A stretch of 42,114 nt of DNA from Saprospiraceae bacterium. Lineage in GTDB: Bacteria; Bacteroidota; Bacteroidia; Chitinophagales; Saprospiraceae. Of this stretch, positions 39,303 to 41,836 are shown piece after piece (the first letter of the stretch is position 1; each line of letters starts with the position of its first letter). Location of the stretch: positions 1 to 42,114 of the forward strand of contig JABFRV010000112.1 of assembly GCA_013140975.1 (NCBI GenBank), in the 5' to 3' direction. The notes below the pieces were generated by a model. It was not told where the DNA came from and searched no databases. It was given only the letters and a program-made list of their open reading frames with translations. Position numbers and translations under genes: made by a program.

Positions 39303-39710
39303 ATGAAAGTTGCCATCTTCAGAAAGGGACATTTCAACGCAGCTCACAGGTTGTTCAAGCCTGAGTGGACAGACGAAAAAAATCTTGAGGTTTTTGGAAT
39401 CTGCAGTAATCCCAATTTTCATGGACACAACTATGAGTTGGAAGTAAAAGTGAGTGGCGAACTTGATCCCAGCACCGGGATACTAATGGACTTAAAAGTT
39501 CTAAAAGAGATAATTCACGAACACATTGAAATGCGTTATGATCACAAGAATCTTAACTTAGATCTTGTTGAATTCCAAGATAAAGTTCCTACAGCCGAGA
39601 ACATTGTCATTGAAATATATAATATTCTTCGCTTACAGATCAATCCCCGTTTCGATTTACAAATACGTTTGTATGAAACTCCACGAAATTTTGTAGAGTT
39701 TCCGGCGTAA
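39303..39710 (+). CDS. 6-pyruvoyltetrahydropterin synthase / 6-carboxytetrahydropterin synthase
   Basis: Zinc enzyme acting on dihydroneopterin triphosphate, 135 residues. Zinc ligands are H15 (FNAAHRL), H40 and H42 (FHGHNY), with nucleophile C34 and the C-terminal LYETPRNFVEF that binds the pterin. The active loop reads CSNPNFHGHNY, a C-x5-H-G-H spacing as in animal PTPS (CNNPNGHGHNY), whereas bacterial QueD usually has C-x3-H-G-H. EENL-like FGIC and the DHKNLNLD motif are also animal-like. It may therefore make tetrahydrobiopterin precursors rather than the queuosine precursor; both remain possible, so I leave the symbol blank. It stands alone after the rpsT terminator. Confidence 0.88.
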   Translation: MKVAIFRKGHFNAAHRLFKPEWTDEKNLEVFGICSNPNFHGHNYELEVKVSGELDPSTGILMDLKVLKEIIHEHIEMRYDHKNLNLDLVEFQDKVPTAENIVIEIYNILRLQINPRFDLQIRLYETPRNFVEFPA

Positions 39711-39799
39711 TTCAAGATTTAAATTTGCCGAATATCATTCTGTGACTTAAGTCCGGCTTTAAAGTAAAATAATTCGTTACGTTGATTGAGTGTCGTACT

Positions 39800-39978
39800 T
39801 GGGGTGTAGGAACGAATATTTCATTTAGAATTGGAACAGAAGATGTAATGTCAATTTCTAAATAAATGTATCCTGAATTTGAAGTGGAAGATTTTATTAA
39901 TCTTTCGAATTACAAGCTTTACTTAAAGCTTATTATAGATGGGAGGCCGAGAAGGCATTTAGTGCACATACTGTATAA
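39800..39978 (+). pseudogene. Decayed C-terminal tail of a VirD4/HerA-like conjugation ATPase
   Basis: Reading 39800 onward gives WGVGTNISFRIGTEDVM, then SISK, a stop (TAA at 39863), then MYPEFEVEDFINLSNYKLY and LKLIIDGRP to 39949. There the frame loses one base: from 39952 the next frame reads KAFSAHTV and a stop at 39976. Joined up, this matches from memory the tail of type IV secretion DNA-transfer ATPases (GNVGT-I-SFR-G-EDA ... F-NL-Y-YLKL-IDG-P-K-FSA-T). A nonsense change and a 1-base deletion mean it is dead. Only about 60 residues survive; no start, Walker motifs or mobile-element ends are seen nearby. Family assignment needs a search. Confidence 0.6.
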
Positions 39979-40135
39979 AGACTGGTTTAATGACTTTTGT
40001 ATCTGGGTATTTATTTGAGAACAGGATATATTAATTTTACTTATCGTTTTTATATAGGATTGCCCAAGTTAAGAATTAACAGCTTGATTGATTTTCTATT
40101 TTGAATATTTCGCTTATTGATGCTACCCCCTGTTG
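39979..40135. other. Intergenic, no feature seen
   Basis: AT-rich spacer between the pseudogene tail and the end of the T9SS protein gene on the opposite strand. With 39711-39799 it completes the 425-base stretch lacking an intact gene. I saw no convincing hairpin, repeat or open frame here. Confidence 0.4.
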
Positions 40136-41836
40136 TTACATCTTAATTACTTTCTCAACCTTTACTAACTTCCCACTTTCAAAGACCTCCACAATATAAA
40201 CTCCTTGATGAATCTGATCGACATCAATTCCATTACTGCCTTCATACATTCGCTTAGTTAGTACTTCCTTGCCATTAAGATCGAATAATGACAGTATCAT
40301 TCGCTGGGGAATATAATCCAACACATTCACAACAAAGTATTCATCGCATGGATTAGGAAACAATTCAATTTTAATATTAACTGTTTTATCCACAGCATTA
40401 GAAACTCCAAGATTCAAGATCTTACACAAAGTATCAGCTCCATTCTTATTCTTAGCAATTAAACACACTTCATACGTACCTTTTTTAGAATATCTATGTA
40501 TTGGATTTTGTGAAATAGAGGTACGTCCATCTTCAAAGCTCCATTCCCATTCGGTAACTTCATAAGCACTTAAATCTGTGAATTCTATATTCAAGTGATC
40601 ACTAGTATCCTGATCACGCCTCCACCAGGCCCAGGGGATGTTGTTAATTCCTAAGGTGTCACAGATGCTGTCATCGATGGGACCGAGCCGATAGTTGGGA
40701 TTATTAGAAACGCCTCTTCTTGCTATGGTCTTCAACATAAATCCGTTGGATCTTGCATCACATGCGAGACCTGGTTCATCTGGCTTATTAATAACATGCT
40801 GATAAAAGTTAGAATAAAGATTAGTAATATAAATTCTTCCGTCTGGTCCTAATTGATGTTGATTGAATTGCGATCCCCAAGGCAAAGTCTGATCAGTTAT
40901 GCTATCAACTTGTATTAAGTTATCAAGCCTATCATTTATAATTTCGTACTTATTAAGAATTAAACCTGAACTATGATAAAGGTATCTTGAATTGGGTGAA
41001 AAACTAATACCTCCTATGCCTTTTTTCACTAAGGGTTTATCTTCAATAAATGATATCTTTCCAGAACATCTGTCAAATGAAAATAGATAAATCGTCGCAC
41101 CAATAATATCACTTATACTTTCATAAAATGCTAAGAGCTTTCCATCATTCAAAAATTTCGCTTGTCCTATACCATCAATAATATTAGGTCCTGAACGAAA
41201 AGTATCTACTTTAAAGCTCCCATCATCTTGTACTAAGATGTTGTAATATAAATTTGTATTGAGCTTATTCAATAATAACCACCAATCTCTTCCATTGGCA
41301 TGCTTACATGCCGTTAAGAATCCATCATTCAAGGTATCAGAAACTAAAGTACCCTTTTCTATAATTTTATTAGTTCCTTCAATCTTAATATAATTAATTC
41401 TTGTTATTAAAAACCTTCCATTTACTCTTTCTAAATAAATATAGAAGAGCATACTCGCATTGACACTTTCTAAAGGTAAAAACATTACTCCTTGCTGTGC
41501 AATTAAAGCATCCCAGTACTTTGGTCCAGTAATTAACACATCTTTAATACTTAAATAATTGGAATCTTTAACTTCGTATCCATTTGAATAATACATCAAT
41601 CTTCCTTCTGTATTTGAAATTGATGCATTAGCATCATACAAAAACTGTCTTATGTTTAATTCAATAGATTGAATTGGATTGCCGGAAATAAAATCAACTT
41701 TAGTTATTCCAAACCTTTCATTTCCCATTCCACCACCATATCCAAATACCCAGTTAAAATCATACCGCTGCGTGATAACAGCGGTATGATAATTAATAAC
41801 AATTAATAGGAAGATATACTTAACTATTGAATGCAT
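40136..41836 (-). CDS. Secreted protein with beta-propeller-like region, PKD domain and T9SS sorting signal
   Basis: Large extracellular protein of 566 residues. The signal peptide is IVKYIFLLIVINYHTAVIT. The N-terminal two thirds (about 25-390) is beta-rich with repeated blade-like units (GISFSPNSRYLYHSSGLIL; GQAKFLNDGKLLAFYES), similar to WD40/6-bladed propellers. A PKD domain lies at about 405-480, with VTEWEWSFEDGRTSISQNP and KKGTYEVCLIAKN. The end (about 488-566) is a type A T9SS sorting domain: IELFPNPCDEYFVV opens it and GVYIVEVFESGKLVKVEKV closes it. So it should be exported by Sec, moved out by T9SS and cleaved or anchored at the surface. The start codon overlaps the end of a decayed sorting domain. 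Substrate or function unknown. Confidence 0.85.
   Translation of the reverse strand: MHSIVKYIFLLIVINYHTAVITQRYDFNWVFGYGGGMGNERFGITKVDFISGNPIQSIELNIRQFLYDANASISNTEGRLMYYSNGYEVKDSNYLSIKDVLITGPKYWDALIAQQGVMFLPLESVNASMLFYIYLERVNGRFLITRINYIKIEGTNKIIEKGTLVSDTLNDGFLTACKHANGRDWWLLLNKLNTNLYYNILVQDDGSFKVDTFRSGPNIIDGIGQAKFLNDGKLLAFYESISDIIGATIYLFSFDRCSGKISFIEDKPLVKKGIGGISFSPNSRYLYHSSGLILNKYEIINDRLDNLIQVDSITDQTLPWGSQFNQHQLGPDGRIYITNLYSNFYQHVINKPDEPGLACDARSNGFMLKTIARRGVSNNPNYRLGPIDDSICDTLGINNIPWAWWRRDQDTSDHLNIEFTDLSAYEVTEWEWSFEDGRTSISQNPIHRYSKKGTYEVCLIAKNKNGADTLCKILNLGVSNAVDKTVNIKIELFPNPCDEYFVVNVLDYIPQRMILSLFDLNGKEVLTKRMYEGSNGIDVDQIHQGVYIVEVFESGKLVKVEKVIKM

Follow-up and report, generated by a model that had tools for sequence, protein, structure and literature searches.

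The analyzed sequence (42,114 nucleotides of a Saprospiraceae bacterium, GCA_013140975.1, contig JABFRV010000112.1; hereafter, the window, from the genome labelled G000) contains the 3'-terminal stub of a stand-alone HerA/TrwB-type ATPase gene. The stub spans positions ~39785 to 39978 on the plus strand, as seen in DNA, protein, and family-HMM matches, and lies where the gene order of the genus changes after a queD-like gene. Similar stubs recur within the genus. Each of them retains the 3'-terminal sequence of the gene, most end at the same sharp boundary, and each is followed by a convergent gene that usually encodes a protein with a T9SS sorting tail. This genus-wide pattern of 3' stubs facing convergent T9SS genes is the new part of this work. 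The window stub is probably the 3' remnant of an ATPase gene that borders the core of a mobile element; the element, or a piece of its cargo, would have landed after queD, with the adjoining T9SS gene retained.

The ATPase remnant and its family

The stub covers approximately codon 326 to the end of a gene of ~390 codons, i.e., its last ~17%, and includes one in-frame stop and one frame change. The segment GTNISFRIGTEDVM starts at position 39809 (plus strand) and runs to an in-frame TAA at 39863-39865. The segment MYPEFEVEDFINLSNYKLYLKLIIDG follows this TAA in the same frame and ends with LIIDG at 39943, whereas KAFSAHTV is encoded in a different frame (39952-39975) and is followed by another TAA (39976-39978). 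No open reading frame (ORF) of 80 or more residues covers the interval 39711-40135. Thus, the original prediction was right that there is no intact gene here and that a nonsense mutation and a frame break are present. It defined the fossil by the stop and a deletion, however, and these lesions are secondary to the main damage, the loss of all but the 3' tail; either of them may be a sequencing error, with most of the gene missing regardless. The DNA from 39711 to 39784 (plus strand), which separates the queD stop codon from the recognizable stub, shows no significant homology. An extension of the stub back to the queD stop at 39710 was considered and rejected, as the alignment of 39711-39788 does not exceed that of shuffled DNA in any of six comparisons.

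Comparison of the window DNA with its own genome reveals a second match on contig C91 (E = 5.1e-27, 75% identity over 179 bases), and the C91 peptide, used as a protein query, recovers the window site at E = 6.3e-19. A family HMM built from eight full-length proteins (six intact genus copies and two order-level relatives) gives a single match in the six frames of the window, covering profile positions 329 to 380 of 388. This match scores 64.9 bits (E = 1.8e-21); none of 20 block-shuffled windows scores above -1.9 bits. The stub and its relatives share 75 to 82% DNA identity across ~180 bases. Searches of Pfam, NCBIfam, and PDB with the short window peptide return no matches or weak irrelevant ones, viral contigs show no match to it, and plasmid matches have E values of 3 or worse; the family was recognized through its genus relatives. 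These empty searches could suggest a chance likeness of short peptides, but the family profile, the negative scores of all the shuffled windows, and the DNA identity refute that explanation, which can be dismissed for practical purposes. Scarcely more credible is an intact gene that merely looks like a pseudogene because of sequencing or assembly errors: over 80% of the gene is gone, including the Walker A region, its N-terminal part is not found anywhere in the window's genome, and the sister stub on C91 is likewise truncated and frame-broken.

The C91 peptide was searched against 60 genomes, the window's own and those of 59 relatives, and matched eight of them: the window's genome, four of the eight congeners (G002, G003, G006, and G007), and the more distant G012 (weakly), G038, and G059. 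Within the genus, this search finds 17 places, 6 intact copies and 11 fragments, two of the latter in the window's genome. The intact copies are found in G002 and G007 (one each) and in G003 and G006 (two each).

The intact homologue is a protein of ~390 amino acids, encoded in the six genus copies by open frames of 388 to 419 codons. In contrast to the stub peptide, which is missed by the Pfam profiles, both of the intact relatives that were scanned exceed the cut-offs of the ATPase families: TrwB_AAD_bind (PF10412; 40.3 and 42.7 bits, cut-off 20.5), DUF87 (PF01935), and T4SS-DNA_transf (PF02534). A structure model of an intact relative, made with 29 related proteins (26 from genome contigs and 3 from viral contigs), has a mean pLDDT of 92.1. 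Its top PDB matches are HerA and TrwB, with E values down to 1e-12, moderate TM scores of 0.57 to 0.64, and rmsd values of 5 to 8. Among viral proteins, Gp156 of Bacillus phage G matches best. By its sequence family, the fossil is a HerA/TrwB/VirD4-superfamily ATPase. Going by fold and family, the intact ATPase would most likely act as a ring-shaped DNA translocase of its element; our searches found no tested function for the intact family.

This ATPase resembles the TrwB/VirD4/TraG coupling proteins in the presence of PF10412 and PF02534 in the two intact relatives and in having TrwB among its top structures. It differs from them at the N terminus. In the intact copies, as read from the sequence, Walker A is located already at residue ~44, preceded by ~43 polar residues, which leaves no room for the N-terminal membrane anchor that precedes the NTPase domain of T4CPs. 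In addition, the relaxase of G002 (MobA/VirD2 type) is adjoined by a separate canonical coupling protein of 475 residues (T4SS-DNA_transf, E = 4.9e-54), encoded ~16 kb from our ATPase. The original prediction of a conjugative VirD4/HerA-like ATPase therefore holds for the superfamily, as the Pfam matches and the model indicate, but the coupling role is not supported, and the label "conjugative coupling ATPase" appears doubtful for this family. The likeness to HerA DNA translocases includes the best PDB match (4d2i, E = 1e-12, TM ~0.57) and the PF01935 scores of both relatives, whereas the HerA equivalog profile NF040819 gives 15.6 and 19.7 bits, far under its cut-off of 970.

Recurrent 3' stubs, their boundary, and the convergent T9SS genes

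In total, the genus contains 19 copies of the ATPase gene, 6 intact ones and 13 stubs, all of the latter with 3'-terminal sequence. Residues 1 to 286 of the ATPase, searched in the nine genus genomes, match the six intact copies and one distant paralogue (27% identity), with no close 5' fragment. Two weak matches to residues 37 to 77 in G006 (41% identity, a stop in each) could be bits of a related ATPase. In contrast, a 77-nucleotide query made of the 3'-terminal bases finds 15 places in five of the nine genomes, including a new micro-stub of 52 nucleotides. Another micro-stub is found at locus L045; the two are ~45 to 52 nucleotides long, and both keep the boundary described below.

Homology between the copies ends sharply at a position that corresponds to 39964/39965 in the window, and the loci differ beyond it. 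In a line-up of 13 copies (all except L028, L043, L044, L045, and the two micro-stubs), ungapped identity averages 75% over the 60 nucleotides before the boundary (range, 37 to 88%, the low values coming from copies with an indel) and 34% after it; for the six intact copies, the respective values are 85% and 35%. The flanks beyond the boundary align locally no better than shuffled sequences and show no shared repeat or site. Even the stop codons of the intact ATPase genes fall in the unshared DNA past the boundary. This boundary is kept in 13 of 16 genus copies. The remaining three, L043, L044, and L045, end earlier.

At the sister stub on C91, the protein tail extends for 76 codons without a stop, and another piece precedes it in a different frame. 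This stub directly follows a gene that looks epimerase-like by eye, and a gene with a T9SS tail lies beyond it on the opposite strand. A tree of the 3' ends of 13 copies is based on a short alignment and has low support; it was used only to see that, in sequence identity, each of the two stubs of the window's genome resembles some intact copy from elsewhere more closely than it resembles its fellow stub. A side observation concerns the gene pair beside the C91 stub (L046:7657-9472), which consists of a gene for a 251-residue protein and the epimerase-like gene. Judging by eye, look-alikes of this pair sit directly upstream of the queD cluster in G002 (L069), so both stubs of the window's genome may adjoin pieces of one ancestral neighborhood.

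The first ORF of at least 100 residues past the ATPase 3' end is convergent with the ATPase in all 16 copies examined together. The L028 stub and the two micro-stubs are also followed by a convergent gene, which makes it 19 of 19; in the order-level relatives, L040 and L041, the next gene is convergent in neither. The first gene encodes a T9SS type A tail over the cut-off in 11 of the 16 copies and at both micro-stubs, i.e., in 13 of 18 scanned, a count that is made without the first gene of L028, closely similar to that of L045. Among the five misses, the second gene has such a tail over the cut-off in L030, L031, and L035 and falls below it in L036 (19.1 bits); this follow-up covers all of them but L045. 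The background is high, with 105 to 150 T9SS type A tails per genome, figures that mean "at least" in eight of the nine genomes, for which scoring was limited to 150 candidates. At an assumed rate of 10% per gene, the binomial probability of 11 or more out of 16 is 2.7e-8, an indicative value because several of the copies are related. Across the whole set, too, copies are not all independent: the neighbor genes of L028 and L045 are near-identical, and a 2.4-kb stretch is common to L043 and L044.

Mobile-element context and proposed origin of the window stub

In the sister species, the intact ATPase gene adjoins a gene for a serine or tyrosine recombinase. Neighbors named by Pfam in G006 and G002 include a large serine recombinase (PF00239, PF07508), a Phage_rep_O-like protein, an XRE regulator, RadC, and ArdC (PF08401 with PF18818); G002 also encodes two tyrosine recombinases near the intact ATPase. 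The other neighborhoods were read by eye. Past the variable genes, RadC and ArdC are found in three of the six intact copies (in G002, one of the two in G006, and G007) and another conserved gene pair in two (both in G003), while the other G006 copy extends to the contig end. ArdC of this type is encoded in every genus genome that has an intact ATPase (G002, G003, G006, and G007) and was not found in the other five, including the window's. In G007, it is split into two pieces ~2.5 kb apart (C51:155418-155789 and 158292-158822); by eye, the ORF between them (L202:17431-19101) could be part of a group II intron. In G007 (L201 and L202; C51:119000-158000), the interval between ATPase and RadC is ~36 kb long and includes an AcrB-family pump and a P-type ATPase. 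Several other genes in it encode secretion-type tails. Beside the element core of G002, L030:12302-15386 appears by eye to encode a SIR2-like protein and a HerA-like ATPase, a possible defense pair.

PF03432 relaxases were found in three of the five genomes searched and in neither G000, the window's whole genome, nor G007. In G003 and G006, the contigs that encode them are not the ones with the intact ATPase. On contig C35 of G002, by contrast, the relaxase, the ATPase, and the tyrosine recombinases lie within ~25 kb, and the relaxase, the coupling protein, and the ATPase likely form one element. The original proposal of a past mobile gene here, among core genes and beside a secreted-protein locus, is supported: the fossil is probably of mobile-element origin. 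Since ArdC and the PF03432 relaxase are absent from the window's genome, it is from the stubs alone that we infer an element at the window site.

The queD-like gene at this site (39303 to 39710, plus strand; 6-pyruvoyl tetrahydropterin synthase family, PF01242, E = 1.6e-30) has matches in all nine genus genomes and is the last gene common to the congeners before the gene order changes. Beyond the stub, and converging on it, the minus strand encodes, at 40136 to 41836, a secreted protein with a PKD domain (PKD_4) and a T9SS type A sorting tail, the proposed retained cargo. The C-terminal sorting domain (TIGR04183, 41.3 bits, cut-off 23; PF18962, 38.6 bits, cut-off 27) marks it as a T9SS-exported protein. 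Its family is dispersed and multicopy. A query that stops short of the end of this protein finds the nearest genus member in G008, at 50% identity, and no near-identical copy on an intact element; family members share contigs with ATPase copies in G007 (C16 and C74), G000 (C91), and G006 (C40). All the genomes are draft assemblies, and the window contig stops 278 bases past this gene, which leaves the far border out of view. A perfect 12-bp inverted repeat with 8 nucleotides between its arms (41759-41790) is present within the T9SS gene, close to its 5' end.

Comparison of related genomes at the locus, one of the checks proposed at the outset, was carried out for nine queD-like loci in the eight congeners, read for 6 kb onward or to the contig end. 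Neither the stub nor the T9SS gene is there: no congener has an ATPase stub after queD, no ORF at the nine loci matches the window's T9SS gene at E = 1e-6, and the window's contig is the only queD contig with an ATPase copy. The window's upstream neighbors are kept at three of these loci (in G001, G002, and G008). The next ORF of at least 80 residues after queD is convergent at eight of the nine loci, all of them without a stub, and several of these genes look by eye like those of short secreted proteins. Convergence at the window site may therefore be ancestral, and a convergent secreted gene after queD is by itself no sign of import. Four congeners share a convergent secreted-looking gene of ~230 codons (L068 to L076), a different occupant of the site that holds the stub and the T9SS gene in the window.

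The events that we propose would have begun with an element whose core ends with the ATPase gene and whose cargo is stored from the ATPase 3' end onward, with genes reading toward the ATPase. This element, or a torn piece of cargo carrying the ATPase end, would land just downstream of queD; the core would then disappear as far as some point within the ATPase gene, and the gene at 40136-41836 would stay, with the ATPase tail as a scar. Retention of the cargo gene would account for the one-sided survival of 3' ends. The order of these events, the arrival of 40136-41836 with the element, and the loss by deletion are deduced from the comparisons above. This gene is probably part of the same event as the stub, because ATPase tails recur beside T9SS-type genes at other loci of the genus.

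Alternatively, the element that decayed at this site may have been conjugative or mobilizable and have had a VirD4/TraD-like ATPase, the adjacent T9SS gene being unrelated resident DNA. This account would fit the superfamily membership of the ATPase, the relaxases found in the genus, the abundance of T9SS genes, and the convergent genes that follow queD without a stub in most congeners. It appears rather unlikely, given that the next gene is convergent in all 19 copies, that T9SS tails are encoded by 13 of the 18 first genes scanned, and that the window's T9SS gene follows queD in none of the eight congeners.

The pattern in G007 raises another question, whether the tails result from deletion at all. 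The starts of five G007 stubs (L039 and L042 to L045) fall within ~10 codons, although the genes that these stubs face differ. A 52-bp repeat directly precedes six of the eight stubs in this genome. This repeat, which has an inner dyad and inverted arms of 14 bp, might be a site of recombination or else a repeat of the hairpin type. It occurs at 18 distinct places (21 matches, minus two both-strand duplicates and a 15-nucleotide chance match), many of them beside T9SS genes (e.g., L043:2310-2368, L042:8904-8962, and L045:10928-10980), and variants of it lie directly upstream of RadC. The ATPase 3' end might then be a docking border at which T9SS cargo is swapped by recombination, with a short tail traveling along with the cargo instead of remaining after a deletion. 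The boundary shared by 13 of the 16 lined-up copies with differing DNA beyond and its retention in both micro-stubs fit this idea, and the G007 pattern somewhat favors it. Nevertheless, such docking seems improbable as an explanation of the window stub. The repeat matches strongly in G007 alone and was not found near the window stub, the boundaries have no site in common, as their flanks align like shuffled sequences, three stubs end before the boundary, and deletion up to a retained cargo gene would yield the same one-sidedness. As a general cargo site, the repeat was rejected: outside G007, it has one partial match in G003 (E = 5.5e-5), the others being at E = 0.008 or worse. The dyad upstream of RadC was likewise rejected as a multi-copy attachment site, as it matches only once in each of four genomes and not at all in the other five. 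In its broadest and still speculative form, the exchange-border reading would make the ATPase 3' end a fixed cargo-slot border in a Bacteroidota element specialized for T9SS-secreted proteins, with the tails as recombination borders that exchange surface-protein genes among elements and chromosomes.

To our knowledge, little is known about how genes for T9SS-exported proteins come and go, and the genomes of this genus encode well over a hundred such proteins each. An ATPase tail with a convergent T9SS gene would be a readable, one-sided mark of imported surface-protein genes, and the scar would name a concrete border to test. A search of the open-licence literature found no report of T9SS cargo on such elements or of ATPase remnants beside T9SS genes.

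Comparison with known systems

In a scan of 84,980 species, the best 80 of 543 confirmed stretches are mostly from Patescibacteria, with 42 to 50% identity, and a few are from Bacteroidota, Acidobacteria, Planctomycetota, and others; ten viral contigs also match the family. A 2025 survey of Patescibacteria (PMC12102498) reports 5,713 VirD4 homologues across 2,918 genomes, with only 148 of these homologues located close to virB4, and leaves room for exaptation or other functions of these proteins. Our ATPase family is presumably counted among them. The orphan VirD4-type ATPases of Patescibacteria are of approximately the same length as our ATPase, in addition to the identity and prevalence among the best matches. 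Unlike them, our gene belongs to a Bacteroidota genus, adjoins a recombinase gene, and persists as mere 3' stubs next to T9SS-type genes. The intact family is thus present both in Patescibacteria and in a mobile element of Bacteroidota.

Integrative and mobilizable elements that carry variable cargo are also comparable. The recombinases, relaxase, and variable genes on one contig of G002 and the pump genes in the G007 slot are similar to what is seen in such elements, whereas the ATPase-adjacent genes differ in being mostly T9SS-tailed and in lying tail to tail with the ATPase 3' end. With regard to integron cassettes, whose borders have attC-like sites, a candidate counterpart would be the 52-bp dyad repeat beside T9SS genes in G007; no such repeat was found near the window stub. 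Finally, in Cryophage, a Bacteroidetes phage, T9SS-sorted genes are also found among the variable genes: three of these encode T9SS type A sorting domains, and the variability of such regions is ascribed to recombination (PMC7468147). That system is a phage, in contrast to the recombinase-bearing island described here, and the account of its variable T9SS genes mentions no ATPase stubs.
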